Source of the DNA: a virus
Length of the DNA: 23,005 nucleotides
IMG/VR virus record: IMGVR_UViG_3300017991_000404
Span: 1-23,005 of that record
Reading direction: 5' to 3' (one strand)
A program made the translations under genes and the position numbers. The number at the start of each line of letters is the position of its first letter. The stretch's first letter is position 1. Below, in pieces: positions 3,001-23,005 of the stretch. The notes under the pieces were generated by a model, which saw only the letters and a program-made list of their open reading frames with translations, made no database searches and was not told the DNA's origin.

Positions 3001-3286
3001 AGACCTGGCGGAGCTCCTTCTTGGCCTTGGTCAGTCTCTTTGTTTTCCTGGTAGTTCTGCCGGTGGCAGCGGCCATGCCGGTAAGCTTGGCGTTCGTGTC
3101 GGCGAGCAGCTTATTGGTGAGCATGAACTGGTGGTTCATGTTCCTGAGCAGCCGGGTCTGTCTGTTCAGGGCCTTGATGTTGACCATAGAGGTCCGGGAA
3201 AGGGCTTGGAAGGCCTGCCTGGCCTTCCGAAGCCCGAGAGTATTGACTCTGGTGTTTACGTTGAAGTCTATCCCTCTGCGAGCCAT
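14..3286 (-). CDS. Tape measure protein
   Basis: Tail tape measure protein of 1090 residues, which sets tail length and occupies the tail tube before DNA ejection. The N-terminal 110 residues are basic and helical. Hydrophobic helices occur near residues 105-125 and in a cluster around 430-510, typical of tape measures thought to insert in the host membrane. A long coiled-coil stretch rich in Q, E and K (about 720-830) follows. The C-terminus has a Gly/Ala-rich patch and a RGGTIPGRGRPS...HPTDTIPIWAAPGEFMMR segment, a pattern I recognise from many phage tape measure proteins. It lies directly downstream of the G/T tail assembly chaperones, the canonical place. A TAGGAG site sits eight bases before the ATG. 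Size, hydrophobic pattern and position make the call firm; individual domains were not tested by search. Confidence 0.93.
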   Translation of the reverse strand: MARRGIDFNVNTRVNTLGLRKARQAFQALSRTSMVNIKALNRQTRLLRNMNHQFMLTNKLLADTNAKLTGMAAATGRTTRKTKRLTKAKKELRQVSRTQLNIMQRLITVMAVFGGTGYVIRGFKNLVSSGIQFNKTMESAQLGIAALISATGQVVNKQGAMVSMADKFAWAQEKAREQVMLLRKDALNTEATFQELMNVYQLAIAPGISGGLDLGEIRKFSVRISQAATALQMPQRQLAEEVRSILRGNIRLQSTRIAAALNITNQQVKKWREMGTLGDELFKKFSAFGEASKKLRETWLGMVGRVKDAFQQLAGTAGLEFFTVLKDTMKELFHLMVNVTDQGISLNNSLVEGFRQIFNALRDVVVYFKQLASAGSAGELSSGLGRISDALRGIGIMVVDVLFGIKDGLQIVGGIVALVRSWLSAIGKVGISFNDVLRKLVAILVTVTAVNTAMKLFKVLSIGVRSVWRVIAITLKVSKKALALMAALTKTIVLKWGIFLAALYKVAEVINSHVSKELGISADFVTQLTAGFRVMGMLAKKVVKTLTIGFENAFNLLQSGLARANIGWLKLRRIALQAKSYVTNDYKQLEAVTVEIRRAQRKLKEIDDSGPAESIGDIWRNVGGDIGKTINDFWLEYEKSGKDSIGILKDDMKDLAGTAAGAAKATAKTAWGVLSSIFDKLKGKLESKPIKVKLDLESSLPGAADGLPVGADDYQMTDVNISQLMAGTQFQALEEAASKYKNMRDNIKEASEFLEKQRVAQERNLLLLQQQSEMQGYTDLDKRNEAISQLEQTEESQRRLNETKKVEVYLAGEALRKQREQFELLKLQAEGGPFTAMEHGLLTFAQKAGDTFQGISNIISQSLNALAETISTTIVDAFDPTKKVNIKERFARLLQSIAKMAIQTFMKIAMAKAIAGIFGGAAGGAGGTVAKAVTKARGGTIPGRGRPSLGHYFNPQGLAAGGRPTGLHPTDTIPIWAAPGEFMMRVDAVRKYGSDVMAKINAGLVDPAGLRGLAGSVRSAASRGARGLGFAEGGELSSRNVLPAQSGGGVSRAVVVADDDAADKILNGGRGAFLRFLAENRDDINGSLRT

Positions 3287-3297
3287 GTGCTACTCTC

Positions 3298-3640
3298 CTA
3301 TATTCCCCTGCCGTATTGGTTTAGCAGGTCCTGTCCCGACCTAGCGTTGGGATCTACCCCTCCTGGTGTCGCGCTCTTTGTCCAGTCTCGAATGACCGAC
3401 TTGAAATCTTTCTGATCGGCCTGTGCGGCCCTTGCCACATATGCAGCCCTGATCATCTCTGCGCTGGCCACTCGTTCCAGGCTTTCCACCAGTGCTCTGA
3501 ATGAAAGAACGTCTAACTCCGAAATCCAGTCCAGGTCAAATCCCTTGGTCACCGCCATGGTGACCATGTCTTGAAGTTCTAGCCAGAAGTCACTTCCTCG
3601 TCCATGCCCTGGCCCATGTTGGCGGCGTCCATGCCTTTTT
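3298..3640 (-). CDS. Tail assembly chaperone T-part, made by -1 frameshift from G
   Basis: Second half of the G-T tail assembly chaperone fusion, which bridges the tape measure and tail tube during assembly. The real protein begins around the end of G and continues with SDFWLELQDMVTMAV... to the stop at 3298-3300, just 11 nt before the tape measure gene. This frame has no credible start or ribosome binding site of its own. Upstream of the slip zone it reads as low-complexity Gly/Arg sequence, the shadow of G. The frame is -1 relative to G. A G-T product starting at 4121 would be about 274 residues. The start given is the approximate slip point, not a codon. Frameshifting at this place is a conserved siphovirus feature (lambda gpG/gpGT); the exact slippery codon here is uncertain. 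Confidence 0.8.
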
Positions 3641-4121
3641 GCAGCAGGTCCCCCGCCTTCTCCGCTAAAGGGCCGAAGACCCTCTTGTTCGCCTCCACGA
3701 GCGCGATGCACATCTGGAATGCCACCCCGAACGGCAGGTTCTCGACGAACTCCACCTTCTCCTTCATGGAGCAATCCTTCAGGTCATCCTTCAGGCTGTC
3801 GCCCAGCAAGTAGGCAAGGACCTCGGCGTTGGCGGGGTCGAGGAGGGTCTCCACGGCGGCCTTCATCGCCTCCTGGCGCTCCCTGGTGCGGAGCTTCGCC
3901 GTCTCGGTGGGGATGGCCTCGGTGTTGACCTCGGTCACCTTGCCAGAGGGATCGGACTTGGCCCGGGTGGCGCAATCGCTGTCGTTGCGGGTGAGAAGTG
4001 TGGTGATGGCCTTCATCACCGGTCCGGCGACCTGGCGCAGCTTGAAGAAAGCCTTCATGGAAATGGGGTAGAACATCAGCTTCTGCCCCTCGATGGTCTT
4101 CTCCAGCCCCGCAGGCCTCAT
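3579..4121 (-). CDS. Tail assembly chaperone G-part
   Basis: Protein of 180 residues from the ATG at 4121, lying between the major tail protein and the tape measure, where lambda encodes gpG. It is expected to coat the tape measure during tail assembly and then be lost. The sequence is helical, with a FYPISMKAFFKLRQ segment near the start that resembles phage chaperones of this type. The ATG at 4121 has no Shine-Dalgarno. A good AAAGGA site lies further upstream, seven bases before an in-frame ATT (4145-4143), and the intervening codons read ISWNDFTF, which looks like real protein. The true start may therefore be ATT at 4145. It ends at TAG 3579, where a -1 shift allows continuation into the T frame. 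Confidence 0.85.
   Translation of the reverse strand: MRPAGLEKTIEGQKLMFYPISMKAFFKLRQVAGPVMKAITTLLTRNDSDCATRAKSDPSGKVTEVNTEAIPTETAKLRTRERQEAMKAAVETLLDPANAEVLAYLLGDSLKDDLKDCSMKEKVEFVENLPFGVAFQMCIALVEANKRVFGPLAEKAGDLLQKGMDAANMGQGMDEEVTSG
3636..3654 (-). promoter_or_regulatory. Candidate -1 ribosomal frameshift zone in G/T
   Basis: Near the end of G the minus strand reads GCG-GGG-GAC-CTG-CTG-CAA-AAA-GGC. Two homopolymer runs could allow a -1 slip. One is the G5 run at 3654-3650 (GGG can re-pair with GGG). The other is the A5 run at 3640-3636 (AAA can re-pair with AAA). Neither is a perfect XXXYYYZ heptamer in the zero frame. Both are upstream of the G stop and both lead into the open T frame. 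Confidence 0.5.
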
Positions 4122-4168
4122 GAATGTGAAATCGTTCCAGCTAATCTCTCTGTCCTTTCTGTTGTGAA

Positions 4169-4205
4169 ATCTATCCCCCGGGGCCAGTCTCCCCGGGGGG
4201 TAGAT
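4169..4205 (-). terminator. Strong stem-loop between major tail protein and tail chaperone
   Basis: Inverted repeat with 15-base arms (4169-4183 and 4191-4205) and a 7-base loop. Fourteen positions pair perfectly around a CCCCCGGGG core. The remaining position is a U-G wobble on the plus strand and a C-A mismatch on the minus-strand transcript. Only a short T stretch (ATTTC) follows on the minus strand, so it may attenuate rather than end transcription. It lies between the highly expressed tail tube gene and the low-dose chaperone/tape measure genes, a place where phages often lower transcript level. An mRNA-stabilising 3' hairpin is an alternative. Confidence 0.7.
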
Positions 4206-4227
4206 CCCTATGACGGTCCGTGTTCGC

Positions 4228-5085
4228 TTACGACTGGTTGGGGTTTGTGGTAATGGTCATGGTGGGACTGTCCGCATCGGCAGCGGAATTGGCCTCGGCG
4301 GCGCCGGACAGCGGCAGCGTGGTCCACTCATCGCCGATCAGGCTCAGGTCGCCCTCTGCGGTGAGTCTCACCTGGTGGAACTGATACTCGGTCCACTTGT
4401 CTTCATCGGCAGGATTCTCCTGCACGAACTTCAGCGCACCCACGAGCCCGGAATGGGCCAGGGCCTTGACCACATGCACCTTCGCGGTGGAAGAGGCATT
4501 GGCAGCGATGTCGACATCATAGGAACCGGCGTCCATGTTGCCGCCGTCGATCACGAAGATACGACCCAGGTCCTTATCCACAGTGAAGTCGGTGCCTTCC
4601 GTCATGGCCGACCCGCCGCCCGTGGCCTCGATGGTCACATCGCCGATGTCGTAGATGCGGTTGCCCTGGGGCTCCGTGCTTGAGCCGACGCCAGAAGCCT
4701 CATCGTAGAGGTCATACCAGCGGCCCTGGTCCACCACGGTCAGGTTGGCGGTGCCGGTCACACCAGCATCACCCTCGTTGTCCCGCTGTGCGGACGTGCC
4801 GCTGAAGAACAAGGCCAGGTTCTCGAAGTTGATCTCGTCCAGGGTGAGAGTCAGGCCCACCTTCTGGGAGACCACCACCTGCTTGTCGACCACCTTCAGG
4901 CCTTCTCGGGTGCTGAAATGATCCAGCTCTTCCTTCTCCACCGAGATCATGAATTCGGTGGCGTTCCCAAGGTCCCTGTAGCCCTCGGGCAGGTCGTTCG
5001 AATCCAGCTCCGCGAAATACACTTTGCCTCGGCCCAGTGTATAGTCGTCGGTGTTGTGCTGGCCATTCTCTCTGATTCCAGGCAT
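4228..5085 (-). CDS. Major tail tube protein
   Basis: Protein of 285 residues, the likely tail tube subunit (lambda gpV position). The first 100 residues have the pattern seen in siphovirus tube proteins: a GRGKVYFAELDS strand near 18-29, then a FMISVEKEELDHFSTREGL segment and a KVGLTLTLDEINFENLALFF region. The middle contains a charge-poor insert (roughly 110-210) that may be a surface domain. The C-terminal EYQFHQVRLTAEGDLSLIG stretch resembles the closing strands of tube folds. An AAAGGAG site is six bases before the ATG. It lies downstream of the terminator-like 140-residue gene and upstream of the tail chaperones, which fixes the assignment well. No sheath gene is seen, so the tail is probably non-contractile. 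Confidence 0.85.
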   Translation of the reverse strand: MPGIRENGQHNTDDYTLGRGKVYFAELDSNDLPEGYRDLGNATEFMISVEKEELDHFSTREGLKVVDKQVVVSQKVGLTLTLDEINFENLALFFSGTSAQRDNEGDAGVTGTANLTVVDQGRWYDLYDEASGVGSSTEPQGNRIYDIGDVTIEATGGGSAMTEGTDFTVDKDLGRIFVIDGGNMDAGSYDVDIAANASSTAKVHVVKALAHSGLVGALKFVQENPADEDKWTEYQFHQVRLTAEGDLSLIGDEWTTLPLSGAAEANSAADADSPTMTITTNPNQS

Positions 5086-5099
5086 TTTCTACTCCTTTG

Positions 5100-5522
5100 T
5101 TATTGCGGACCTATTTCGGCCCTGATACGATATGCCGCATAGGTCCCCTTGGGCGAGTTCTTTCTCTCGGGGTGACTGTAATCGGCGCTCTCCAGATACA
5201 GAAAAATAACTCTCGTGTCTTCTGTCTTCGCAATGACCGGGACCTGGGCCATCCACGATTCCTCGAAGTCCTCCGTGATAACCTCCTGGTTGAACTCTAT
5301 CACGAGGTCCCAGTCCCAGGAATCCGGCTCCTGGCGCATCCTGTCCCGGCGGGTTGAGGGGCCGAAGGACTTCCCAGACTCTTGCACCTCGATGGCCCTG
5401 GGGGTCACGCTGGTGCCCTCGTCTACGGACAGGCGTCTGCCTACCAGGTGTGTCACCGGGTGGAAGGAGGCGGCCCCTACCTCGTCCAGGATCCGATTGT
5501 GGATCTGCTGGCGATAGTTCAT
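5100..5522 (-). CDS. Putative tail terminator / tail completion protein
   Basis: Protein of 140 residues starting MNYRQQIHNRIL. The reading frame is open further upstream, but that extension is the shadow of the previous gene. The start at 5522-5520 forms an ATGA overlap with that gene's stop (5521-5519) and gives a natural N-terminus. It lies immediately before the major tail tube gene, the usual place of the tail terminator (lambda gpU) or a neck protein. The sequence is mixed alpha/beta, with a DWDLVIEFNQEV strand around 71-82 and an aromatic VIFLYLESADY segment around 103-113. There is no diagnostic motif, so the role rests on gene order and size. Confidence 0.65.
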   Translation of the reverse strand: MNYRQQIHNRILDEVGAASFHPVTHLVGRRLSVDEGTSVTPRAIEVQESGKSFGPSTRRDRMRQEPDSWDWDLVIEFNQEVITEDFEESWMAQVPVIAKTEDTRVIFLYLESADYSHPERKNSPKGTYAAYRIRAEIGPQ

Positions 5523-6046
5523 GGCAGCTTCCTCCAGGACTTGCCCACCCGGCGGGGGTCGGTCTCGGGCTCGATGGTCTTCACTCGGAGGCTGGTATTG
5601 GAGTCGAGGGACTCGCTGGCCTTGAGGATGTCGAGGTTCTCGTTGATCTCGTTCTGATACCGCAGTCGGACCGAGTCCAGCTCCTCCTGGGTCATCCGGC
5701 GGAACGGCCCCTCCTCCTGGAACACGTCCCGGGCCTCGGCGGCGCTGTCGAGAATCATCATCGGGGAGATGTAGCTCAGCTCCAGCCAGATCCACTGAAT
5801 CTCGGTCAGCTCGGCCAGCTCCCGGAGGTATTCATCGTTCTCATCAGGATCGACTGGGGAGGCCTGGGTGATGGCGACCAGGGCGTCAATCCTGGACTGG
5901 GAGAGGACCTTGCGGAACTTCACCCTCACTGTGCGCACGGCGCGCTCCAGCAGGGTGCCAATGTCCGTGTCCTCCGATGTGCTCACTTGAGACATGCGGA
6001 GGTTTTCTTTCAGAGTATCAAGATCGGTAACGAATAGCGGGTCCAT
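5519..6046 (-). CDS. Putative head-tail connector / neck protein
   Basis: Protein of 175 residues starting MDPLFVTDLDTL. I choose the ATG at 6046 because a GGAG site stands about six bases upstream and the previous gene stops at 6050-6048. The longer in-frame start at 6076 has no ribosome binding site and would overlap that gene. The protein is acidic and largely helical (VRTVRVKFRKVLSQSRIDALVAI around 48-70, then QWIWLELSYISPMMILDSAAEARDVF). Its place between the 104-residue head-completion gene and the tail terminator candidate matches connector or neck proteins of lambda/HK97-type phages. No catalytic motif is visible. Confidence 0.6.
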   Translation of the reverse strand: MDPLFVTDLDTLKENLRMSQVSTSEDTDIGTLLERAVRTVRVKFRKVLSQSRIDALVAITQASPVDPDENDEYLRELAELTEIQWIWLELSYISPMMILDSAAEARDVFQEEGPFRRMTQEELDSVRLRYQNEINENLDILKASESLDSNTSLRVKTIEPETDPRRVGKSWRKLP

Positions 6047-11155: not shown

Positions 11156-11683
11156 CTAGCGTTTCCGCTTTTCTCCCCACGAAGCAAGTCCGATGGCGTC
11201 GATCAGGTGAGTCCACTTCCCCGGCGGGAAAGACACGTCAATGTCCACATCCTTTGGGACAACCCTGGCGCTGTTCGAATGGTAGGACCAACCCACAGCA
11301 TTCAGGATTCTTTTGTGCTTGACGATCTTGGGAACAGAGCCCTTCCAGGTGTTTGGCAGGGGGATCCGGATGTCCTGGCAGAACTCGGACGCCGTTCCGG
11401 CGACAGCCCCCGCCACCTGGGCCAGCTTGATGAGGTCCTTGGGCCTGGCACGACCTTGCTGATAAATCTGCTGGCCCTCGACCACCACCCTCTGGATGTC
11501 AGGAAACCTGCCAAAGAGCTTCCTCACGGCCTTGCAGACCTCCCACGCCATGGCGGCCACGGCGGCCTCTTGCGTGAGCTTAGCGTCGATCCTAGCCAGC
11601 TCTAAGCCACGGCATCTGGAGTTCTCGACCACGGCGAAGGCCGTGTTGTGCAGATCGGGGTCGCAACCAAGAACAAACATCAT
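11156..11683 (-). CDS. RuvC-like Holliday junction resolvase
   Basis: Protein of 175 residues with an RNase H-like fold expected to cut branched DNA before packaging or during recombination. Visible catalytic motifs are Asp8 in LGCDPDLHNTAFAVVE, Glu69 in RVVVEGQQIY, and His159/Asp162 in HLIDAIGLASWG. These fit the first, second and last acidic positions of RuvC. The start is chosen at 11683, where ATGATG overlaps the stop of the GT2 gene as ATGA; the open frame further upstream is a shadow of that gene. It is the last gene of the long leftward operon and meets the plus-strand structural gene tail to tail. Confidence 0.85.
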   Translation of the reverse strand: MMFVLGCDPDLHNTAFAVVENSRCRGLELARIDAKLTQEAAVAAMAWEVCKAVRKLFGRFPDIQRVVVEGQQIYQQGRARPKDLIKLAQVAGAVAGTASEFCQDIRIPLPNTWKGSVPKIVKHKRILNAVGWSYHSNSARVVPKDVDIDVSFPPGKWTHLIDAIGLASWGEKRKR

Positions 11684-12471
11684 GCGCCTCCCTGGTCTTT
11701 GGTGAACGGCTGGTAGACCCGGAGGTTGGCGAGGCCCACCCATTTCTGCAACACAGTCAAATTGGGGTCCGGCCTGAACTTCTTGGGGCGGTGCCCCACG
11801 CCGATCCCCTCCCTCCCGGGCATGCCCTTGATGCCGATCATGAGGTCCCTCTCGGGCTCGAAGATGTCGAAGGTGCCTGCCCCCGTCATGGCCACCTTCC
11901 AGAAGAACGCGTCGAGACCTTTGTTGTTCGTTTCCAGGCAATGCGAGGCGGCCTGGAAGAGGATGGGCAGCAGGTCAGCACTCATCCCGGTCGAGCACAG
12001 GGCCGACCCTCGATTGCGGAAGACCCGGTAGCTTCTGGAGGGAAGATGGTAATACTTCTGCCACACCGTTCCCACGGCCTCTGCCTCCTGCAGCCGGTCC
12101 CACATATCCTCCAGGTAGCCGGACAGGTAGCAGTCGTCGTCCTCCCAGATCAGGATCTTGTCCGCAGATACGTAATGGATGCCGTTGATGATGTTGCTGG
12201 CCAGACTCTGAGGGCCGTATGGGTATGCGCTCTTCTGGCGCACGTGATACATCGTGATGCCGAGGTTCGCCAGCTCGCTTTGGGACTGCTCTGCCACAGC
12301 CTTGGCGGTCGCCTGGGTTCTGCCATCATCCACGATGACCCACTCCACTTGTCCTCCTGCCTCAGGGCTCAGGAAGGACTGCCTCTTCATGTGCCTGAAG
12401 GCCATCTTCAAAGCATCGTAGCGGTCACCTGTGGGGGTGATGATGCTTAACTTTTTAGAAGGTTTCCCCAT
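11680..12471 (-). CDS. GT2-like glycosyltransferase
   Basis: Protein of 263 residues with a GT-A fold glycosyltransferase pattern. It opens with KLSIITPTGDRYDALKMAF, the nucleotide-sugar binding strand and helix. VEWVIVDDGR follows near 42-51, then SLASNIINGIHYVSADKILIWEDDDCYLSGY, where the DDD supplies the metal-binding DxD. Start at 12471 is chosen because it gives the natural beginning of the fold; an AAGGA site stands about ten bases upstream. The gene overlaps the GT-D gene by 25 nt. The donor sugar and acceptor cannot be read from sequence. It shares the LA-N-x3-G-x2-YVS...DD layout with the GT2 at 19331-20059, so the two may be related. Confidence 0.82.
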   Translation of the reverse strand: MGKPSKKLSIITPTGDRYDALKMAFRHMKRQSFLSPEAGGQVEWVIVDDGRTQATAKAVAEQSQSELANLGITMYHVRQKSAYPYGPQSLASNIINGIHYVSADKILIWEDDDCYLSGYLEDMWDRLQEAEAVGTVWQKYYHLPSRSYRVFRNRGSALCSTGMSADLLPILFQAASHCLETNNKGLDAFFWKVAMTGAGTFDIFEPERDLMIGIKGMPGREGIGVGHRPKKFRPDPNLTVLQKWVGLANLRVYQPFTKDQGGA

Positions 12472-13139
12472 TCCTCTGCTGTCCTTTCCTTGTGGTAGGC
12501 CCTGTTGAACTTGCCCACATACGGATCCCACAGGGCGCCCACATCAAGTAAACTCACATTATGTGGCTTGATCCTATGTTTGGTGAAAATGTCATGAATA
12601 AGGACGGATGACGCCAATGACGCCGAGATGCTGAACGTGTCCCACCCCTTGCGGATATACCTGACAATGCCTTCGATGATGCGCTTCCTGGCGATGAAGC
12701 AATTCAATTCTGGAACGCAAACGAACCCGCAGGAGCTATCGGCCACAAAAGGCAGATCCCGTAACCACCGAGGTCCTACCACCACGGACTCGCGGTCGCG
12801 CAAGTAGTTGGCCATCATCCACGCGTTGCCTGCCCTGGAAAGGTGTTCGAACAGCCTGGAAGGGGCGGGATTGTCAAAGGCCTTGTATTTCAAAAGATGC
12901 TTTGCAGAATCTCCAAAGACGGACTCAATCGTCTCTGCCATCAGTCCGTAGGTGACACCTGGCACAGGCCTCTTGGCGGCCCGGATCAGTGCCGTCCGCA
13001 GCTCCTCAGTATACTCGTGGCGATCACAATTGGCAGGGCCATGACCCAACATGCACGCGAACTCTCCGTCCCCGAACCTAGAAATTGAAAAGGTTTCCCT
13101 ATTTAGAAGCTTCTGTATCAGGCCTCGCAGATCACGCAT
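12447..13139 (-). CDS. GT-D (DUF1792) family glycosyltransferase
   Basis: Protein of 230 residues. The SISRFGDGEFACM motif at about 18-30 contains the DxE (Asp24-Gly-Glu26) that defines the GT-D fold, known from DUF1792 proteins acting on Ser-rich adhesin glycans in streptococci. The length agrees with that family, and the C-terminal SLLDVGALWDPYVGK segment fits its closing strand. It starts eight bases before the end of the preceding DUF616-type gene, with AAGGAAG about ten bases upstream. One line sampled in its 3' half (12541-12600) has only 20 G/C of 60, far below its neighbours, which suggests acquisition from elsewhere. The sugar it transfers is unknown. Confidence 0.75.
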   Translation of the reverse strand: MRDLRGLIQKLLNRETFSISRFGDGEFACMLGHGPANCDRHEYTEELRTALIRAAKRPVPGVTYGLMAETIESVFGDSAKHLLKYKAFDNPAPSRLFEHLSRAGNAWMMANYLRDRESVVVGPRWLRDLPFVADSSCGFVCVPELNCFIARKRIIEGIVRYIRKGWDTFSISASLASSVLIHDIFTKHRIKPHNVSLLDVGALWDPYVGKFNRAYHKERTAEEWGNLLKS

Positions 13140-13845
13140 GATTTACGAACTTCCTTCCTTTTTTCTCGCAGAGACTAATTCGCATCTTCTTGGTCTCTTT
13201 GCCCCCGTGCGCCCAAAACTTGGCGTAGGGGTTGTTCCGATAATGTCCGTAGAGCAGGCCCTGCTTTACGTCAGAAAGCCAGAGAGCAAAGTCTACGGAC
13301 ATCTGGTCCCGGGGGTGGCCTCCTTCTTGCAGAAGCTCCCACCACTTCTTGGCGAACTCCCGAACGCAAAAAGACCCTCCCCGAAAGGCCATCAGCCCGG
13401 TGGTAGTGAGGTGGTCCTGGAAGATTTTCATCACCCTCCCGAATACTTGCAGTTGCCTGTCTAGAAGCGCCTTGTCCCACCCGTGACGACCGTGAAGGAC
13501 CTCCGCCTCCTCGTGGATAGAGTCCCTATGGGGGTGCGCCATGGCCAGGACATCGTAGTCCTCCAGGTATGGGTAGACGATGTCCTCGGGCTTTTTCTTG
13601 AGCTGGAACGTCCCGTCAACCCACAAGACGTCATCGTGGGGATAATGGATGGGGGCAAGGATCTTGCGCTGCCGGGCAGGCCACCTGGTGCTCCGCCACC
13701 CCGGGTCCCTCAACTGCTTCACTTCCCACACGGTGGACTTCAGCTCAGGCCTGTTGGTGTAGCAGATATACTCTGCTGCGTCGGACACCTCAAGAGGCTC
13801 CAGGAGCGGATCCTTGTCTCCTATATGTGCGGTAAGGACCTTCAT
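13132..13845 (-). CDS. DUF616 (TOD1/MUCI70-like) glycosyltransferase, copy 2
   Basis: Protein of 237 residues starting MKVLTAHIGDKDP, with GAGGAG a few bases before the ATG and an ATGA overlap with the previous gene. Motifs in order are EYICYTNRP (26-33), RQRKILAPIHYP (58-69), LWVDGTF (74-80, a metal/nucleotide site), AMAHPHRDSIHEEAE (101-115), and RDQMSVDFALW (179-189). This order is that of DUF616-type putative glycosyltransferases. The RDQ...LW element is shared with the next gene upstream, so the two look like diverged duplicates. No signal peptide or membrane helix is seen, so it should act in the cytoplasm. Substrates are unknown. Confidence 0.72.
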   Translation of the reverse strand: MKVLTAHIGDKDPLLEPLEVSDAAEYICYTNRPELKSTVWEVKQLRDPGWRSTRWPARQRKILAPIHYPHDDVLWVDGTFQLKKKPEDIVYPYLEDYDVLAMAHPHRDSIHEEAEVLHGRHGWDKALLDRQLQVFGRVMKIFQDHLTTTGLMAFRGGSFCVREFAKKWWELLQEGGHPRDQMSVDFALWLSDVKQGLLYGHYRNNPYAKFWAHGGKETKKMRISLCEKKGRKFVNHA

Positions 13846-14552
13846 TTTCTCCTCGTCTTTGGCACGTAAGTGAATCCCCATCCCCGGTCGAAATGGTAGT
13901 TGACGTCCCAGCTCACTACATCAAGGCCCCTGGTGTTTATGATCTCCCACAAGGACAGGTCCAGGGTGAGCTGGTCCCGTTCAAGCTCCAAGTGGAGGAA
14001 GTTGTCCCACCACCGCTCATTGAAGGCCCTCACCGCATCGTTGTGCCTGCGGAACAGGACCCCACCAATGTGCATTGGGACCTCCATGTAGGAGAAATTG
14101 CGATCCTCCCACATGCACACGGCACGGCATGCCTCCTCGTGGTTTAGGAGCCTCCGCTCCGCATGGGTCAGGGCAGATATTTCCTCGCGAGGGTTCTGCC
14201 TGCGAGGATGCCGAAACAGGCCCATATCGCGGCGGTCTATGAGGTAGGCGTCAAGAGCCTTCTTGGGATCATCCGGGATGAAAGCAGAATCCACATAGAC
14301 GTGCCTGTCTCCCTCCTCGAAGGGGAAGAAGACCTCAGGCATCATCTTGGCCCGGCGAGATTCCCGAATGAAGTCGATCCGCTCCAAGGGACCCGAACCG
14401 GCCTTGAGGTATTGCGTCTCCAAAAGCACCCAGCCATTGGACCCGCCAGTGTAGAACTCGTCCACAATGGCAATGCCGTCGATGTCCCGTTTCTCCAGGA
14501 TGGGAAGCTGGGGCTGGTATCCTCCCAGGTTGGCTGTGATGAGGTAGTCCAT
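13842..14552 (-). CDS. DUF616-like glycosyltransferase, copy 1
   Basis: Protein of 236 residues starting MDYLITANLGG. The start at 14552 overlaps the methyltransferase stop by one base (TAATG) and has AGAGGA seven bases upstream; the longer open frame is a shadow of that gene. Motifs are SRRAKMMP (65-72), HVYVDSAF (84-91), GLFRHPRRQN (111-120), HIGGVLFRRH (161-170) and RDQLTLDLSLW (192-202). The RHP plus RDQ combination is typical of DUF616-type putative glycosyltransferases. The protein lacks export signals. With copy 2 it forms a tandem pair, which suggests consecutive sugar additions or different donors. Confidence 0.7.
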   Translation of the reverse strand: MDYLITANLGGYQPQLPILEKRDIDGIAIVDEFYTGGSNGWVLLETQYLKAGSGPLERIDFIRESRRAKMMPEVFFPFEEGDRHVYVDSAFIPDDPKKALDAYLIDRRDMGLFRHPRRQNPREEISALTHAERRLLNHEEACRAVCMWEDRNFSYMEVPMHIGGVLFRRHNDAVRAFNERWWDNFLHLELERDQLTLDLSLWEIINTRGLDVVSWDVNYHFDRGWGFTYVPKTRRK

Positions 14553-15154
14553 TAACAGATCCTCTCCAGGGTCAAGAGGCCGTGGCTGAAGGCAACGTGG
14601 CGCTTGATAACCCACTCCGGATGCACAACCATGAACTCGTCTATGGCCAGCCGGATCCCGTGGACCTTTGGGTTGAACTCGGGGGTGACGTGCGGGTCCT
14701 CGATCCAGGTGCCCTTCTCGCCATCCGCACCCCATGTCCCGAAGGTGATGGTGTCGTGGAAGACGATCCACTTCTTGGTCTTCCCCGCAAAGATTTCCAG
14801 CTCGGAGGCAACCTGATGATAGTGGTGCAGGGAATCCACGAAGAGCAGGTCGTGCTCCGGCACGTCCTCCAAGGAGACCTTGGTGGTGTCTGCCTGCGTG
14901 ACCTTCCACTTGTCCCCGATGAGAGGCATGAGGGCCTTGGCTCCCTTGGTGATGACCAGATCGTAACTGTAGAGCTTGCCCTCGCACCAGGCCAAGGCGG
15001 TAGAGGAGGCGCCGTGCTTGATGCCCAGCTCAACCACATTGTCAGAACACAAAGCCAAATCGCGAAGATAGTCCAAATGCCTCGCAGTTGCCGTGCGCCC
15101 TTTGGCAAACTTCGACAGGTGGGCCTTGACGGCCTCTTCGTTCTTGATCTTCAT
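14552..15154 (-). CDS. Class I SAM-dependent methyltransferase (Methyltransf_24-like)
   Basis: Protein of 200 residues with a Rossmann-type SAM-binding site: VVELGIKHGASSTALAW at 40-56 holds the acidic residue and glycine loop. DLLFVDSLHHYHQV (102-115) and WIVFHDT (129-135) follow, the order seen in Methyltransf_24 and cephalosporin-hydroxylase-like enzymes, which often methylate sugars or small molecules. It lacks the DPPY/NPPY motif of DNA adenine methyltransferases and the Pro-Cys motif of cytosine-5 enzymes. A sugar O-methyltransferase fits the neighbouring glycosyltransferases. Its ATG overlaps the preceding stop as ATGA. The acceptor is inferred from context only. Confidence 0.75.
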   Translation of the reverse strand: MKIKNEEAVKAHLSKFAKGRTATARHLDYLRDLALCSDNVVELGIKHGASSTALAWCEGKLYSYDLVITKGAKALMPLIGDKWKVTQADTTKVSLEDVPEHDLLFVDSLHHYHQVASELEIFAGKTKKWIVFHDTITFGTWGADGEKGTWIEDPHVTPEFNPKVHGIRLAIDEFMVVHPEWVIKRHVAFSHGLLTLERIC

Positions 15155-15741: not shown

Positions 15742-16124
15742 GATCTTTTCTTCTTCCTCTCCGTGAGCCACTCGCGCTCTTGCAAGTAGAGACGATTGTC
15801 CCGGCCCTTGTTTTTGTCGATGAACTCTACCAGCATGGCGATGTTGGCGGCGGCATGGTAGATGTGAGGCAGCCCAGACTCCTGGTCTATATCCTCCCCT
15901 TCCCACCACGCCGTCAGGTGGCGCATGCAGGACGCGTAGGGCTGCAACCAGGGGAAGCCTTTTTGCCAGTTGAAGTCACCGTATTTGTCGGCCCCGGCAC
16001 CGAAGACCTTGGCCAGGGCTTTGAACATGGAAACGGGAACCAACTCCATCCGGTCTTTCCCGTCGTCAAACCTGGCTGCCTCGTGTGGGTTGTTCACGTC
16101 ATGATTGTAAGGTGATTTACTCAT
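15738..16124 (-). CDS. dATP/dGTP diphosphohydrolase-like protein (DUF5664)
   Basis: Protein of 128 residues. The motifs ARFDDGKDRMELVP (17-30), FGAGADKYGDFNWQKG (41-56), and RHLTAWWEGEDIDQESGLPHIYHAA are a near-textbook DUF5664 pattern, named dATP/dGTP diphosphohydrolase in phage annotations. The enzyme would hydrolyse purine dNTPs and so shape the nucleotide pool during phage replication. The His and acidic residues in the last motif likely bind metal. It overlaps the polymerase stop by eight bases, which couples it to replication. Comparable enzymes in some phages remove normal nucleotides to favour a modified one, but nothing here proves that. Confidence 0.8.
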   Translation of the reverse strand: MSKSPYNHDVNNPHEAARFDDGKDRMELVPVSMFKALAKVFGAGADKYGDFNWQKGFPWLQPYASCMRHLTAWWEGEDIDQESGLPHIYHAAANIAMLVEFIDKNKGRDNRLYLQEREWLTERKKKRS

Positions 16125-18270
16125 CTTCTTCTGGCTCCCAAACTAAAAGATTTCCCTCATCGTCCCTGACCTCTTCCGCCGCCTTGGACCACCTGCGCAT
16201 CAGGGCTGGCTCGGCCTCGATGGGGACGTCTGGAAACACTTCCTTCATTCCATCGACCATCAACTCCGCCACCCGGTCCGCCCGGGCACCCGCCAGCAAG
16301 TCATCCGGTATCTGAAGCATGATCTCATCGTGGATGAATGCCCATGGCTTGCACCCATAAAGAAGACTACCCGGAGTTTCGCACTCGCGCACCACTTTTA
16401 TGATGGCTTTTTTCGCCCCCTCGGCGGACGGGGACTGCATGCAGGCTCCGTTGGCGCAGGCGCAATAGCTGCAACACGCCCTCCACATGCCCATGGGCGT
16501 TTCGTAGCAGTAGAGGCTCGGGTCGCTTTGGTCCTGGCAATCCTGGTTGATCCAGATGAAATAGTCAACCATCTCCGGGTAGGTTCCCAGCCAAAGCTCC
16601 TTCAACTGGGCCGCCGTTCCCTCGTCCACCGCCACCCCGTAGACTGCAGCAGCGAATTTCACGAACGTGGCCGGGCCAAGGCCCCCGGGATACCCAAGGC
16701 CAGTCGGCTTGGCGAAGGTCCGCCAGTGCTTCCAGAACTTCCTGTCACTTTGATTCTCAGAAGTCTTCAGGGCAAAGAACTTGTCGTAAACCTCGTCGGC
16801 GTCCAGGCCTTTGGCCGTCTGGGCAAAGTCTTCATCGAGATGAAGAGCAAGCTGGCTGCCAAGGAACGAGTGCAGGTCATACCCGGCCAGGACCTTGTCC
16901 CGGTGAACAGAGTAGCCAAACAGGGAGAACGTCTTCTGGGCCACGCTGACAAGCTCCAGGGCGCTGTAGTCCACAGAAGCGAATACGTGCCCCGGGTCAG
17001 GGATGAAGCAGTCCCTGGCCCTGGGATCAACCTGCTGGATGTTGGTGGAGGGGTAGAGGCTGCCGCCGTAGGACGATGTCCTCCCGGTCTCCTTCAGGAT
17101 GTCGAATTCTGGGTGGACTCGGTCGGCATCCAGCTTTGGCAGCTCCGAATTCACCAGCCTTGCAATCTCCTGGCGGTCCTTGTATTCCTGGAGGATTTTG
17201 TTGAAGGGGGCCAGGACCTCCAGGACCGCTCCCTCCGCGCTGATGGCCCCGGACGGCGTCTTGGTGGGAGGGATCTGGTGCTCCTCACAAACCGCCAAGA
17301 TGACTTCCGCCAGGGCCTTCGTGTTCACCGAGGGCTTCTTGGGGCTCGTGAACTTGATCCCGTTCTCCTGCAGATTTTCCCGGTAGGGCTCCCAGTCGAA
17401 GGTGTCATACTGGTCGGCAGGCAGGTCAGGAAACACCTCCGCCAGCTTTTTCTTCATGTTCTTGTAGGGCCTGGGCGGAGTCGCCGGGCGGAGGATGCCT
17501 GACCGGATCAGGCGAGGAAGGTTTTCGGGGAGCATCCTCTCCCCCAGCTCCTTGGCCTTGCTGTCCCGCAACTCCCGGTCTATCCTGACGCCGTTTATCG
17601 TCATGACCCGCAAGCAGAAGTCGGCAAAGACCTGGAGTTCCTCCGTGTTGCAACTACCCGGGCCTCGGGGGGCCGACCGGCGCAACTCCTGCTCTTCGAA
17701 GACCCGCAGGGTGCCAATGGCGTCATCGAGGGCGTAGTCTCTGGCCTCGGTCGGGTAGTCCTCCGCCGCCTTCCCTTCCAGCTCATGATACCGGAGGCGC
17801 CAGATGTCGTCCCCCTCCTTGAACTCTGACCGGTCGACCCCAGTGTATCTCTTCTCCAAGGAGGAGAGCGTATAGCTGACCCGGCGGGATCCGCCATCGG
17901 GCTGGGGCAGGTCCTGGATGTGGCCGAACTGCCCGAGATTCAGGAGCTTCTCTCGGATTTGGGTATCGTGGACAAGCCCCTTCCCCAGCTTGTCGTAGAT
18001 CAAGGGGCGGAGGTGCTCCCAGGTGGAGATGAGGCAGGTGAGGTCGTAGGCCATGTTGTGCCCGATCAGGGCCACATCGTCGTTACCCAAAAGACCTTCC
18101 AAGATGGGCAGGGTCCTGTCGTCGCAGTGGGCGAGCAGATCAGACTCTATCCTATTCGGATTGATCCTCGTGGCCAGGCTGATGCAAATCACCTTGGGTG
18201 CAATCGCTCCCTCCCCCATCAGGAAGGTTTCCGTGTCCAGCGATACCCAGGTCTTGTCTTTCGTAGTCAT
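16117..18270 (-). CDS. Family A DNA polymerase with 3'-5' exonuclease
   Basis: Replicative polymerase of 717 residues. The exonuclease has SLDTET (Asp12, Glu14), HNMAYD (Asp76) and Y179-x3-D183. The polymerase has motif A VDYSALE (Asp434, Glu439), motif B R517-TFA-K521-PTGLGYPGG and motif C AFIHDEIML (His647, Asp648). There is no 5'-3' exonuclease domain, as usual for phage enzymes. The residue equivalent to E. coli Phe762 is Leu525, and the expected Tyr four residues further on is Gly. The ATG at 18270 has AGAGGA eight bases upstream; a TTG one codon earlier is possible. The start lies inside a small zinc-ribbon gene, overlapping it by 119 nt, and the end overlaps the diphosphohydrolase gene. 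Confidence 0.95.
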   Translation of the reverse strand: MTTKDKTWVSLDTETFLMGEGAIAPKVICISLATRINPNRIESDLLAHCDDRTLPILEGLLGNDDVALIGHNMAYDLTCLISTWEHLRPLIYDKLGKGLVHDTQIREKLLNLGQFGHIQDLPQPDGGSRRVSYTLSSLEKRYTGVDRSEFKEGDDIWRLRYHELEGKAAEDYPTEARDYALDDAIGTLRVFEEQELRRSAPRGPGSCNTEELQVFADFCLRVMTINGVRIDRELRDSKAKELGERMLPENLPRLIRSGILRPATPPRPYKNMKKKLAEVFPDLPADQYDTFDWEPYRENLQENGIKFTSPKKPSVNTKALAEVILAVCEEHQIPPTKTPSGAISAEGAVLEVLAPFNKILQEYKDRQEIARLVNSELPKLDADRVHPEFDILKETGRTSSYGGSLYPSTNIQQVDPRARDCFIPDPGHVFASVDYSALELVSVAQKTFSLFGYSVHRDKVLAGYDLHSFLGSQLALHLDEDFAQTAKGLDADEVYDKFFALKTSENQSDRKFWKHWRTFAKPTGLGYPGGLGPATFVKFAAAVYGVAVDEGTAAQLKELWLGTYPEMVDYFIWINQDCQDQSDPSLYCYETPMGMWRACCSYCACANGACMQSPSAEGAKKAIIKVVRECETPGSLLYGCKPWAFIHDEIMLQIPDDLLAGARADRVAELMVDGMKEVFPDVPIEAEPALMRRWSKAAEEVRDDEGNLLVWEPEEDE

Positions 18271-18406
18271 CAAGCAGGTCCTCTCGAACCAGGGCGTTCT
18301 CAGAATAGCACATAGGGCAGGTGCAAGAACGTATCCTCCGATTCATCTGTGCCCTGTAGCGGCAATCAACGCAATGATACATCACTCTTTGTTGGACGCG
18401 CCTCAT
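18152..18406 (-). CDS. Small zinc-ribbon protein overlapping the polymerase start
   Basis: Open frame of 84 residues with its ATG overlapping the FmdB-like gene stop as ATGA (18406-18403). The first 40 residues hold a zinc-ribbon: HCVDC (Cys12, Cys15) and SCTCPMC (Cys28, Cys30, Cys33). The remaining part (after about residue 45) runs through the polymerase start in another frame and looks like shadow sequence (GGGSDCTQGDLHQPGHEDQSE), so only the N-terminal domain is likely to be functional. Its position suggests a role tied to replication, perhaps protein or nucleic-acid binding. I do not recognise a family. Confidence 0.6.
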   Translation of the reverse strand: MRRVQQRVMYHCVDCRYRAQMNRRIRSCTCPMCYSENALVREDLLDDYERQDLGIAGHGNLPDGGGSDCTQGDLHQPGHEDQSE

Positions 18407-18736: not shown

Positions 18737-19273
18737 TCAGTCCTTGGACTGGTAAGCCGAGGCCATCTGCTTCATTTCCTCCTTCGTGAGCAGCTTGGTC
18801 AGCTCCTCCTCCGTGAACCGCTCCTCGATCTCCTCCTCGGTGAGGACCCGCTTGTAGGACTTGCGGGTGTATTCCTTGCCGGAATCCTTGCCCACCCGGG
18901 TGATGTTGTCGACCTCGACGATGAGGCCAGCGAAGGGCTGATCATCCGAGGTCACGTAGTCACACGCCTCCTCGTCGATCTCATCCTGGGAATCCGCACC
19001 GGACAGGGTGTAGACCATGGACTTGAAGTTGGGCAGGAAGCTGTCGTGCCGGGCCATCTGCAGGTCGGCGAACTCCTCCCCGGGATAGTGGCCCTGGTCA
19101 CCCTCGCTGGCGATGACCTCCAGGCACTTCTTCTGGACGGCCACGAAGTCCTCGCCCTTGCGAGAGGTGCCGACCTTGATGCTCTGGATGAAGACCACAT
19201 ACCGGCCCGGCTTGGCATAGTTGGACTGCATGGACATTTTGGTTTGACCGATACCCTTGAACAATTTACCCAT
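18737..19273 (-). CDS. Putative ssDNA-binding / replication accessory protein
   Basis: Protein of 178 residues beginning MGKLFKGIGQTKM. The GRYVVFIQSIKVGTSRKGEDFVAVQKKCLEV strands (23-53), a HYPGEEFADLQM loop and GLIVEVDNITR (115-125) look like an OB-type beta barrel. The last 45 residues are charged (ERFTEEELTKLLTKEEMKQ), as in many phage ssDNA-binding proteins with an acidic partner-binding tail. It is placed between the helicase and the polymerase, a normal site for such a protein. AAAGGAG lies seven bases before the ATG, and a good promoter precedes it. Strong expression signals fit a protein needed in large amounts. Family assignment is by fold appearance and context only. Confidence 0.6.
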   Translation of the reverse strand: MGKLFKGIGQTKMSMQSNYAKPGRYVVFIQSIKVGTSRKGEDFVAVQKKCLEVIASEGDQGHYPGEEFADLQMARHDSFLPNFKSMVYTLSGADSQDEIDEEACDYVTSDDQPFAGLIVEVDNITRVGKDSGKEYTRKSYKRVLTEEEIEERFTEEELTKLLTKEEMKQMASAYQSKD

Positions 19274-19314: not shown

Positions 19315-19343
19315 ATTATACGGCGGAAACCTACTCTTGTCCC
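19315..19343 (-). promoter_or_regulatory. Sigma-70-like promoter before ssDNA-binding gene
   Basis: On the minus strand a perfect TATAAT (19320-19315) follows GGGACA (19343-19338, four of six matches to the -35 consensus) with a spacer of exactly 17. It overlaps the end of the upstream glycosyltransferase gene and would start a transcript about 35 bases before the ssDNA-binding gene ATG. It is the best promoter match I found in the window and likely drives the polymerase-to-RuvC operon. Confidence 0.7.
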
Positions 19344-20059
19344 CTTCTTTTTTCAAAAAGTTCATGTTTTTCTGTCATGACCGAAGGAACCCCCTCCTGG
19401 CGCTCGAAAATGCCCGGGTCCTCCGCCCTGCCGATAATGCTGATTGCCCCGAGGGCGTTCAGCTCCCGGCACCTTCGATCCATCTCCGGCTCGCATTGGC
19501 TGATGTCGATGCCGTCCTTGGTGGTGGCGGTGCTGAAAAGGCCAGTGCAGTAGTGGAAATCCCACCGCATGAGGTGGGCGCAGTCAGAGTAGTAGTAATC
19601 CAGCTTGGGATCCAGCCAGAGGTAGGGACCTCGCTTGGCAGCGGCCTTCCGGTGCTTTTCGCTGACGATGTATTTCACCATTGACACGTTGCTGAAATTC
19701 TCCACCAGCATCTCGGCGTCATCCTCGATGGAATATGGCCTGCGCATGATCATGTCGTCCTGAAGATACAGGATCAGGTTGGGGGCATGGCGGTGGGAGA
19801 CGTATTGAAGCCCCGCATTCAGGTTATTCGCCAACAGCGGCTTGCCGGGAGTATAGAAATACTCGATGTCCTGGGACTCCAAGAAAGCCTCGGTCTCTTC
19901 CCGGAGCAGGTGCCCTTGTTCCTGGATGGCGGTGACCCATGAAACCCTGCATTCTCCCCAATCCATGTTAGTGCGGACCGATCCTATCATCCGCTTCAGG
20001 GCCTCGAATCTCTCTGGATACCGATTCCAGGCAGTGGTCAAAACGCAGATACTGATCAT
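19331..20059 (-). CDS. GT2-like glycosyltransferase downstream of the helicase
   Basis: Protein of 242 residues starting MISICVLTTAWNRYPERFEAL, a GT-A nucleotide-sugar opening. It continues with LLANNLNAGLQYVSHRHAPNLILYLQDDMIM, with the DD metal site, and YYSDCAHLMRWDFHYCTG in the acceptor half. The ATG at 20059 has an almost ideal Shine-Dalgarno AAGGAGGTGA at 20073-20064. The same frame stays open upstream to ATGs at 20221 and 20263, and the extra acidic residues (AEEAEFDLSEF...) do not resemble a GT domain. They may be a separate leader or fused domain. It shares layout with the GT2 at 11680-12471. Its place between helicase and promoter sets it apart from the main glycosyl block. Confidence 0.78.
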   Translation of the reverse strand: MISICVLTTAWNRYPERFEALKRMIGSVRTNMDWGECRVSWVTAIQEQGHLLREETEAFLESQDIEYFYTPGKPLLANNLNAGLQYVSHRHAPNLILYLQDDMIMRRPYSIEDDAEMLVENFSNVSMVKYIVSEKHRKAAAKRGPYLWLDPKLDYYYSDCAHLMRWDFHYCTGLFSTATTKDGIDISQCEPEMDRRCRELNALGAISIIGRAEDPGIFERQEGVPSVMTEKHELFEKRRGQE

Positions 20060-20221
20060 CCCCTCACCTCCTTGGCGATCCTGCTCCTCGGCGTCCTGGT
20101 CCTCCAAAGGCAAGAAATACTTGTCAACATCCCAGTCGTAGTATCCGCCCTTTCTGATGCCCTGCCGGAACTCGCTGAGGTCAAACTCTGCCTCTTCAGC
20201 TCGCACCAGATTCCAGTCCAT
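20060..20221 (-). other. In-frame acidic leader upstream of the GT2 gene
   Basis: 54 codons, MDWNLVRAEEAEFDLSEF... to ...EEQDRQGGEG, continuous with the GT2 frame and with no stop. It is rich in Asp, Glu and Tyr (KGGYYDWDVDKYFLP). It starts inside the 3' end of the helicase gene by 26 nt. Either a small separate protein once ended here and fused with the GT, or a longer 296-residue GT is made alongside the short form. Confidence 0.45.
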
Positions 20222-23005
20222 CCTGGGCTTCCCCGAACTGTTCGTTAATTCTTTGTCTGTCATTGGTAGAAAGCATCCTGTTTTGCATACCGCGCTCACG
20301 TAGGAACTGTGAGGAGTATACCTCGGGGAGCGGATCATAGTCGGCTATCAGCAACTTTTGTCGCTGACCAGTCGTCTGGGTGATGTAGATCGAGTCATTC
20401 AGGGTTGCCGCAAACAAAATCTTGTCCCACCTGAGGGTGTTGCACGTGGTGGCCACGACGGTATCGGCCCTCTGGCCCTGGCGGTGCGTCCTCCCCAGGA
20501 CCTGCTCTGCCTCCTTGGCTGGCCGTGGCCACTGTAGGAAGAACTCGTGCGAGAAGTGCTGGAGGTTTTTCCCGGTGCCGTGTGCCCTCATAGAGGCCAC
20601 ACAGACGGCGTCCTTGTTGCTCGGGTCCATAATCACCTCTCCAGCCCGAGAGCCTGCAGGGCAGTCCAGAGTGCGTATCCCGGCATCCAGGAGGGTCTCC
20701 ACCATCCAGGAGGCGATGGCCTTGTGGTGGACCCAGATGATCCCGCCCTCTCCCCTGGGAAGCTCCTGCGCCCACTTCAGGCCCTGCTGGATCTTGTAAT
20801 CACAGACGCGAACCACCCGGCCCTCCCTGACAGGCATGTTCGGAAACTCCAGGCCCTTCATCTCGATCCAGAGGTCGGCCAGCATCTGTGGGACCTTTTG
20901 CCCCCCAGTTCGGGATATTTCCAGCCCCACCAGGAGTGGGGTGTCCAGGCCACTGGGAGGGCTGCTGGACAGGAAGTGTCGAAGCTCTCTGAGGTATTCC
21001 TGCTTCGCCTCGTGGTGTTCCAGAGCGCCGTCCAGCGCCTTCCTGGCATCCTGGAGGGTCAAGCCGTGCCGACGGGCAACCGTGTCCTCATCCGGCCAGA
21101 TCAGCTCATTGTAAAAGCCAGCAGATAGTTCGTAGAGCCATTTGAATGTGTGAATGGCGTGATCAATCTCGTCTCCGTTGGGCGTGAGGAATTCCGTCTG
21201 GACTTGCTCCGCCAGGGTCTCCAGGGCCTCGAAGCCCTCGAACTTCTCCGGCGCCGGGACTGGCCGGTTGCGCAGGAGCAGGCCGGTGCCTATCTCCTGG
21301 TCGCCCGTGGCCACTACTCCAGGGGTCGTGGTGAGGCGGTGCTTGTATGCGTTCCGGTAGCCCTCGACGGTCTCCTCAAACGTCTCACCAGAGCCGAAGA
21401 ACTTCGTCCTGGCCCAACTCAACAGAGGCTGCAGGGGACGCATCTCCTCGGCAGAAGCGAAGTCCACCTCCGAGTCTATCACGGATCCCCATTCGCCAGC
21501 CTGGACGGGGTTCCTCGGCAAGGGACACGCATCCCCCAGGGCGGCCCGGATCAGATGGTGGTATTCCGAAATCCGCCGGGAGGTGATCGTGCCAGACACC
21601 GCAAGGAACTGAGGTCCCTTTTCGATTATGTATTTGTTCAATCTTCGTGCCCGAGCGGCCCTGAGGTTCTTGAGCTTGTGGCACTCATCAGAAATGATAA
21701 CCTCAGGGCCGATGGCCTCCAGAATGTCATCAGTGTCCTTCACCGAAAGCAGGCTGTAGGGCATCAGGTAGCACCCTGGCCGTCCAGAGTCCACGATCTC
21801 CTTGCGCTTCTTTGGGGTTTTCCGTCCCAACTTGTGGAAGGGAACCCCCAGGGAAATCTTGGTCCTGGCCCACGGTATGTCTCGGTGAATTAACTGACCG
21901 TATACATCAGGCGGCATAAGAAGGATGATCTTCCTTGCCCCCTGAAAATAGAAGTGGTCCGCCGCTTTAAGGGTGATCAGGGTATTGTGTAAAATTATGT
22001 TGTTGCCCACCCAAGATTCGGTTCCGGGCACGTTAAGATCATATACTGGATGTCTTCCGATAGGCTGGACCTTGCATACCCTTGCCCACCTGATATGATT
22101 GTGGGCCAGCTTGGAGTAAGGCCCAGAGTAGTCAAAATCATCACAAAATCTGCTGAATTTTTCCCTGGATACAAACTGGCGAGAAGTGGCACTTAACGCG
22201 TCCCTTATTACCGTCTTGCTGGCACGCATATATTCGGCTATTTCACTTGATTCTTTTCGAGAAATGGGAACAGAATCCTTATTTGGATTGCCGACCTCCT
22301 CATCCGCCCCAACGAACTTTCTCAAAGCAGCACCAGAGACAGTCAGCCTCCAAGAATCGAACTTCTTACCGTTGCATCTGGTTTTTTTATAGTGTGTGCA
22401 GGATATTACACCAAGCCGAAGAAAAAGGTAACGCAAATCAGCCAAGAGTCCTTTGTTGGCAAGGCCAATTTGTAGCTGTCCTCCTCTAGAAGCACTAAAA
22501 TGTCCGTCACAAGCTATGAAACGGTCAAGAAACAGCTTGCATTGCCTCTTAGGCAGCAAATACCATAACGAAGGCAGCCTCTTATTTGTAGCCTTGCAGC
22601 CCCATTGATCCCAACGCCTGACTATGTGGCTCAATCCTCGGATGTTTACCTGGGTTGCTTTACCTGCTGGTTTCCTTGCCCCGAAGCTGCCTCCCAAACA
22701 ATCTACCACCTCTTGCATTTCTGCAAGAATGGCTGGGTCCATGTTAGTGAACGACGGTTGCCCACTTGAAGTGCTTCCATCAGACATCATGTATGCCAAG
22801 AAAACAACTTCCGCATCGGAAACATCGAGCATCTCAGGAGGGTCTGGCAACTCCCTGGGAGTGGCAACCATGTCTCCCTTCTTTAATTTTCCAACACACT
22901 TCCACCCAAAGGGCGTATACACTGGATGGTCCAAGGAAAGACCAACGTCCTCTCCGCAGTCCGTATAAATCCTTACACATTCTTTTTTACCAGATAGAAA
23001 AGATG
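20196..23005 (-). CDS. SNF2-like helicase with intein (5' part outside window)
   Basis: Open frame running off the right edge. The helicase C-extein is 595 residues (20196-21983). Motifs are VIISDECHKLKN (motif II, DECH), FLAVSGTITSRR (motif III), and the C-terminal lobe TGKNLQHFSHEFFLQWPRPAKEAEQVLGRTHRQGQ with the Q-x2-GR-HR-GQ signature of SNF2-like proteins. In this operon it is a likely replication or recombination ATPase. The Thr at 21983-21981 follows the intein and would be the Thr of the Walker A GKT; the Gly-Lys and earlier sequence lie beyond the window. Its 3' end overlaps the leader frame of the GT2 gene. The excised protein only forms if splicing works. Confidence 0.88.
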   Translation of the reverse strand, partial: SFLSGKKECVRIYTDCGEDVGLSLDHPVYTPFGWKCVGKLKKGDMVATPRELPDPPEMLDVSDAEVVFLAYMMSDGSTSSGQPSFTNMDPAILAEMQEVVDCLGGSFGARKPAGKATQVNIRGLSHIVRRWDQWGCKATNKRLPSLWYLLPKRQCKLFLDRFIACDGHFSASRGGQLQIGLANKGLLADLRYLFLRLGVISCTHYKKTRCNGKKFDSWRLTVSGAALRKFVGADEEVGNPNKDSVPISRKESSEIAEYMRASKTVIRDALSATSRQFVSREKFSRFCDDFDYSGPYSKLAHNHIRWARVCKVQPIGRHPVYDLNVPGTESWVGNNIILHNTLITLKAADHFYFQGARKIILLMPPDVYGQLIHRDIPWARTKISLGVPFHKLGRKTPKKRKEIVDSGRPGCYLMPYSLLSVKDTDDILEAIGPEVIISDECHKLKNLRAARARRLNKYIIEKGPQFLAVSGTITSRRISEYHHLIRAALGDACPLPRNPVQAGEWGSVIDSEVDFASAEEMRPLQPLLSWARTKFFGSGETFEETVEGYRNAYKHRLTTTPGVVATGDQEIGTGLLLRNRPVPAPEKFEGFEALETLAEQVQTEFLTPNGDEIDHAIHTFKWLYELSAGFYNELIWPDEDTVARRHGLTLQDARKALDGALEHHEAKQEYLRELRHFLSSSPPSGLDTPLLVGLEISRTGGQKVPQMLADLWIEMKGLEFPNMPVREGRVVRVCDYKIQQGLKWAQELPRGEGGIIWVHHKAIASWMVETLLDAGIRTLDCPAGSRAGEVIMDPSNKDAVCVASMRAHGTGKNLQHFSHEFFLQWPRPAKEAEQVLGRTHRQGQRADTVVATTCNTLRWDKILFAATLNDSIYITQTTGQRQKLLIADYDPLPEVYSSQFLRERGMQNRMLSTNDRQRINEQFGEAQDGLESGAS
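21984..23005 (-). mobile_element. Intein with LAGLIDADG homing endonuclease (N-terminus outside window)
   Basis: About 340 intein residues are visible. Block B is SLDHPVYTPFGW, followed by KLKKGD. Two endonuclease motifs occur, VFLAYMMSDGS and FLDRFIACDGHF, about 100 residues apart, as in LAGLIDADG enzymes. The splicing C-block is VYDLNVPGTESWVGNN, ending in His-Asn at 21989-21984, directly followed by Thr. Block A with the first Cys or Ser is beyond the right edge. The intein is AT-richer than its host gene: one sampled line (22141-22200) has 27 G/C of 60 against 42 of 60 in the helicase (20461-20520), which suggests later arrival. Both endonuclease acidic residues appear present, so it may still be mobile. 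Confidence 0.88.

Follow-up and report, generated by a model that had tools for sequence, protein, structure and literature searches.

The record studied here ends within an insertion in a phage helicase gene, which raises the question of what was inserted, exactly where, and what it does to the enzyme. We analyzed the virus record IMGVR_UViG_3300017991_000404 in its entirety (23,005 bases; the window). On its minus strand, a single open frame encoding 935 aa runs from position 23003, at the record end, to a stop codon at 20196-20198. Pfam searches of its product detected Intein_splicing (E = 9.8e-11) and LAGLIDADG_3 (E = 2.2e-10), both above the gathering score, and the intein_Cterm profile TIGR01443 matched residues 319-341 above its cut-off. 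The identification of an intein is thus far beyond chance resemblance. The codon of Asn340 occupies 21986-21984, the intein ends ...IILHN/T (the slash marks the junction), and Thr+1 follows at 21983-21981; the boundary that an earlier note on this DNA had placed at 21984 is exact to the base. Downstream of Thr+1, the C-extein continues in frame (LITLKAADHFYFQGARKIILLMP). The record stops at 23005, and the N-terminus of the intein (block A) and the GxGK half of the Walker A motif fall beyond the contig. Judged by alignment with relatives, the off-contig part of the intein would amount to about 43 residues and the full intein to about 383 residues. As the note had also claimed, the intein is AT-richer than the helicase: its GC content is 47.0%, compared with 59.1% in the C-extein and 57.1% across the whole window, and the difference is larger at third codon positions (46.8% versus 73.9% in the C-extein). 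This contrast is consistent with an arrival of the intein from elsewhere. The features of the locus are listed in Table 1.

Table 1. Positions of the intein, the helicase and neighboring replication genes in the window
Feature	Position	Strand	Basis
Intein, C-terminal 340 residues	21984..23005	-	Open frame, Pfam, TIGR01443, alignment
Block B, LSLDHPV (SxxH)	22920..22940	-	Sequence, alignments
LAGLIDADG motif 1, VFLAYMMSDGS	22773..22805	-	AlphaFold model, alignment
LAGLIDADG motif 2, KLFLDRFIACDGHF	22497..22538	-	Pfam, AlphaFold model, alignment
Blocks F and G, PVYDLNVPGTESWVGNNIILHN, with penultimate His and terminal Asn	21984..22049	-	TIGR01443, alignment
Thr+1, splicing nucleophile and Walker A Thr	21981..21983	-	Alignments of relatives
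SNF2-like helicase C-extein, 595 aa and stop	20196..21983	-	Motifs, PHROG, fold of a relative
Helicase motif II, DECH	21678..21689	-	Sequence
Helicase motif VI, EQVLGRTHRQGQ	20472..20507	-	Sequence
Conserved 178-aa replication-module gene	18737..19273	-	Adjoins the helicase in L008 and other relatives
Replication-module DNA polymerase	16117..18273	-	phrog_17, E = 2.8e-52; order kept in relatives

The splicing motifs present in the window fit a class 1 intein, whose N-terminal Cys or Ser (block A) would lie beyond the contig. Block B (LSLDHPV) carries the (T/S)xxH of this class, and the C-terminus ends in His-Asn followed by Thr+1, with TIGR01443 above its cut-off; in the alignment, block F reads PVYDLNV and block G reads NNIILHN. 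We also considered class 3, given the Snf2 intein of Deinococcus radiodurans. This class is defined by a nucleophilic Cys in block F that is part of the WCT motif (PMC7664689), and we rejected it because block F of the window intein has Asp (VYDL) and no Cys.

The endonuclease domain was examined in an alignment and in an AlphaFold model built on a 29-sequence alignment (mean pLDDT 90.6). Both LAGLIDADG motifs retain their catalytic Asp (FLAYMMSDG and FLDRFIACDG), and the model contains two full LAGLIDADG repeats, one from helix 63-74 to 125-130 and the other from helix 152-166 to 224-231, followed by a helical segment and the C-terminal splicing strands. The motifs are therefore intact, as the note had suggested. 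The best match of the model in the PDB was the VMA intein of Thermococcus litoralis (7qss; E = 7.5e-21). Compared with its relatives, the window intein is without about 20 residues just past the second repeat, so the endonuclease may be weakened, although it is probably still active.

The host protein has the motifs of an SF2 helicase, namely a DExH motif II (DECH) and a motif VI of the form QxxGRxHRxGQ (EQVLGRTHRQGQ), and matched the phage DNA-helicase family phrog_62. Its nearest relatives are 45-53% identical and lie in other phages. With the SNF2 profile, the C-extein scored below the gathering score (11.2 versus 24.9), whereas L008, one of the two closest relatives (L008 and L009; 53% identical), scored above it (30.3). 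Further, SWI2/SNF2 motors ranked first in the PDB for the model of L008 (pLDDT 87.6), and for this reason 'SNF2-like', the name already used in the note, is a fair one. Downstream of the helicase are the 178-aa gene, a zinc-ribbon gene and the DNA polymerase gene. The same order is found in the intein-less L008 and L009, indicating that the helicase gene is part of a replication module.

Two further regions of the window attracted our attention. A 335-aa ORF that matches no family (19331-20338) overlaps the end of the helicase and precedes the 178-aa gene; in L008 and L009, the spacing is too short to fit a counterpart. In addition, a run of genes at 11680-15154, flanked by RuvC-like and dNTP pyrophosphohydrolase genes, encodes glycosyltransferase (Glycos_transf_2, TOD1/MUCI70) and methyltransferase domains and perhaps functions in DNA or surface modification.

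To locate the insertion, we compared the junction with uninterrupted and interrupted relatives. In intein-less relatives with a readable Walker A motif, GxGxGK is followed at once by the residue that aligns with Thr+1, usually a Thr. L008 and L009 read GVGQGK/TLITLLIAA without interruption, and the 14 bases past the junction are identical between L008 and the window. In the model of L008, the first helix after the loop starts at the Walker A Lys, as in a canonical P-loop. Further, a 108-kb phage contig (L212) carries a complete intein of 424 aa and reads LAVGSGK/Cys1...HN/TLLDFLAP. The helicases L037, L049 and L059 share 41-51% identity with the C-extein of L212, and we assigned L212 to the helicase family of the window on the basis of these matches. 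The C-side of the K/T insertion was read directly in the window, and the N-side is predicted from the intein-less relatives and L212. The location in the Walker A loop proposed in the note is thus supported by homology.

An insertion at this point has precedents. Inteins of mycobacteriophage TerL1-a lie between the invariant Lys and Thr of Walker A, a 'classic' P-loop insertion that is said to be common among cellular intein-containing proteins (PMC5050341). The insertion in the window is probably of this classic type and hence of a known kind, because its predicted K/T junction matches that description. The host differs, being a terminase in TerL1-a and an SNF2-like helicase in the window. 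Two other phage inteins, L089 and L211, share the junction and the clade of the window intein and possess LAGLIDADG motifs, but their hosts are terminase large subunits. L212 agrees with the window in helicase family, K/T junction and clade, although the nearest relatives of the two inteins differ (L211 for L212) and their helicases are distant within the one family. The VMA-b intein of T. litoralis is likewise a P-loop intein with a LAGLIDADG endonuclease (7qss; PMC8966425), for which cutting was demonstrated (PMC8966425); its host is an archaeal V-ATPase, and it is only about 22% identical to the window intein. DnaBi1 of Mycobacterium smegmatis and the RadA intein of Pyrococcus horikoshii are also inserted in the P-loop, and their splicing precedes ATPase function (PMC6195587, PMC5790916). 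These two inteins are without an active endonuclease, whereas the window intein has both LAGLIDADG repeats; further, DnaBi1 is a class 3 intein, unlike the window intein, which has no block F Cys. Finally, the D. radiodurans Snf2 intein, cited in two papers, shares with the window a Snf2-family helicase as host but belongs to class 3, with a block F Cys where the window intein has Asp (VYDL) (PMC6195587, PMC7664689).

These results very probably reflect a P-loop intein that is spliced out to leave an active helicase, encodes a homing endonuclease, and behaves as a mobile element rather than a dedicated regulator. In the precursor, the P-loop would be split between Lys and Thr; the ATP site should not form and the precursor should not bind ATP, because the insert parts GxGxGK from T. 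Splicing would follow the class 1 route, with an N-terminal Cys or Ser predicted from relatives and with two residues that are present in the window, the terminal Asn and Thr+1. This autocatalytic reaction would excise the intein and rejoin GxGxGKTLITL, and helicase activity would have to await it. The P-loop Thr would then serve twice, first as the splicing nucleophile and later in coordinating Mg, a dual use already described for the Ser of DnaBi1 (PMC6195587). The endonuclease, with its intact fold and both catalytic Asp residues, would cut the P-loop codons of intein-less alleles and so allow the intein to be copied in. In the simplest reading, the element persists because the P-loop is conserved and imprecise loss is not tolerated.

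The note had raised the possibility that helicase activity is conditional on splicing. A precursor of this kind could also act as a regulatory switch, in which the helicase would stay inactive until splicing is triggered by single-stranded DNA, redox state or the stage of infection. Conditional splicing was demonstrated for the P-loop inteins of P. horikoshii RadA (PMC5790916) and M. smegmatis DnaBi1 (PMC6195587), and a switch in the window would be proposed by analogy with them. We consider it improbable. The intein is absent from every intein-less relative of the helicase in which the Walker A motif is readable, and the endonuclease, intact in the AlphaFold model, suggests a mobile rather than a domesticated element; on these two grounds we favor a mobile element.

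Slightly less probable still is that the insert is decaying, having lost splicing or homing, and that the helicase gene is non-functional. Such decay might explain the absence of about 20 residues past the second repeat and the substitution of the block F His (GTESW). However, the same position is occupied by E, K, G or T in other members of the clade, and we rejected the substitution as a sign of a dead intein. Moreover, the frame is open from end to end, the splicing residues and both catalytic Asp residues are retained, and the intein was modeled with high confidence.

An assembly chimera would arise if, at the contig end, a terminase intein became fused to an intein-less helicase via a P-loop word common to both. 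The exact junction and L212 speak against it, and we assign it a very small probability. In its favor, the intein lies at the extreme terminus of the record, its GC content differs, and its nearest relative is a terminase intein. However, the intein continues into the helicase without a seam, in frame and precisely at K/T. In a chimera, the P-loop word would have to sit between the two parts, whereas here block G abuts the TLITL of the helicase itself; terminase C-exteins have TFFAS or TYAAS instead. L212 also has the same arrangement inside its contig.

We also examined the lineage of the intein. The intein protein alone as query yielded no matches in the viral contigs, and the helicase profile yielded none in genome_contigs; relatives of the intein were gathered by profile scans for the intein. 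In the resulting tree, 23 phage inteins, that of the window included, formed one clade (support 100/99). All of them sit at a GK/T or GK/S junction, and every member with a readable start has Cys or Ser right after GK. Their hosts are 20 terminases, two SNF2-like helicases (the window and L212) and one ResIII-type helicase (L223; ResIII, 5.6e-14). Among the terminases, PHROG matches confirmed L089 and L211, and the others were assigned by similarity of the junction-flanking sequence. The nearest relative of the window intein is the terminase intein L089 (about 42% identical), and that of the L212 intein is another terminase intein, L211 (99/96). A terminase-only clade excluding the helicase inteins was rejected (p-AU 1.6e-5), and a common origin of the two helicase inteins gave p-AU of 0.149 with 51 rows and 0.027 with 26 rows. 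At this loop, the lineage apparently passes from one ATPase to another, unrelated one. The part of the literature that we searched contained no paper on a lineage moving between unrelated P-loop genes.

Several side observations were made in these comparisons. Related inteins occupy the GK/T or GK/S junction of other phage ATPases (L223, L226, L228 and L249), the hosts being a ResIII-type helicase, two DnaB-like helicases and a Sak4-like protein. Nine inteins (L091, L092, L093, L095, L220, L221, L222, L223 and L229) form one subclade with a common one-residue deletion in LAGLIDADG motif 2 (e.g., FLNRLFT-DG). The terminase ORF of L114 (IMGVR_UViG_3300024262_000019, 2074-5718) apparently contains two inteins six residues apart in one P-loop and reads LTG/C...HN/SIGWGK/S...HN/TFFAS.

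At the DNA level, terminase and helicase genes agree exactly over as many as 15 bases spanning the junction (GGTTGGGGAAAA/ACC, in L222 and L013), compared with at most 9 at random points in the same DNA, a control that ignores the common protein motif. Because the shared protein motif was not corrected for, this comparison indicates only that a common DNA target for the terminase and helicase insertions is possible. More tentatively, the lineage may be specialized on the P-loop, its endonuclease recognizing GWGKT-like codons and moving between terminases, SNF2-like helicases and ResIII-type helicases at K/T; we hold this proposal to be plausible but doubtful.

If it is true, the target of the element would be the DNA of a protein motif and not of one gene. 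P-loop inteins are well known, and their frequent insertion into the same loop of unrelated ATPases may reflect a DNA target common to these genes, the ability of the protein to tolerate an insert there, or regulation. Because related inteins here occupy the same K/T position in terminase genes and in phage helicase genes of two kinds, and alleles free of the intein are available, homing across genes is directly testable. For annotation, SNF2-like helicases of phage replication modules count among the hosts of phage P-loop inteins.
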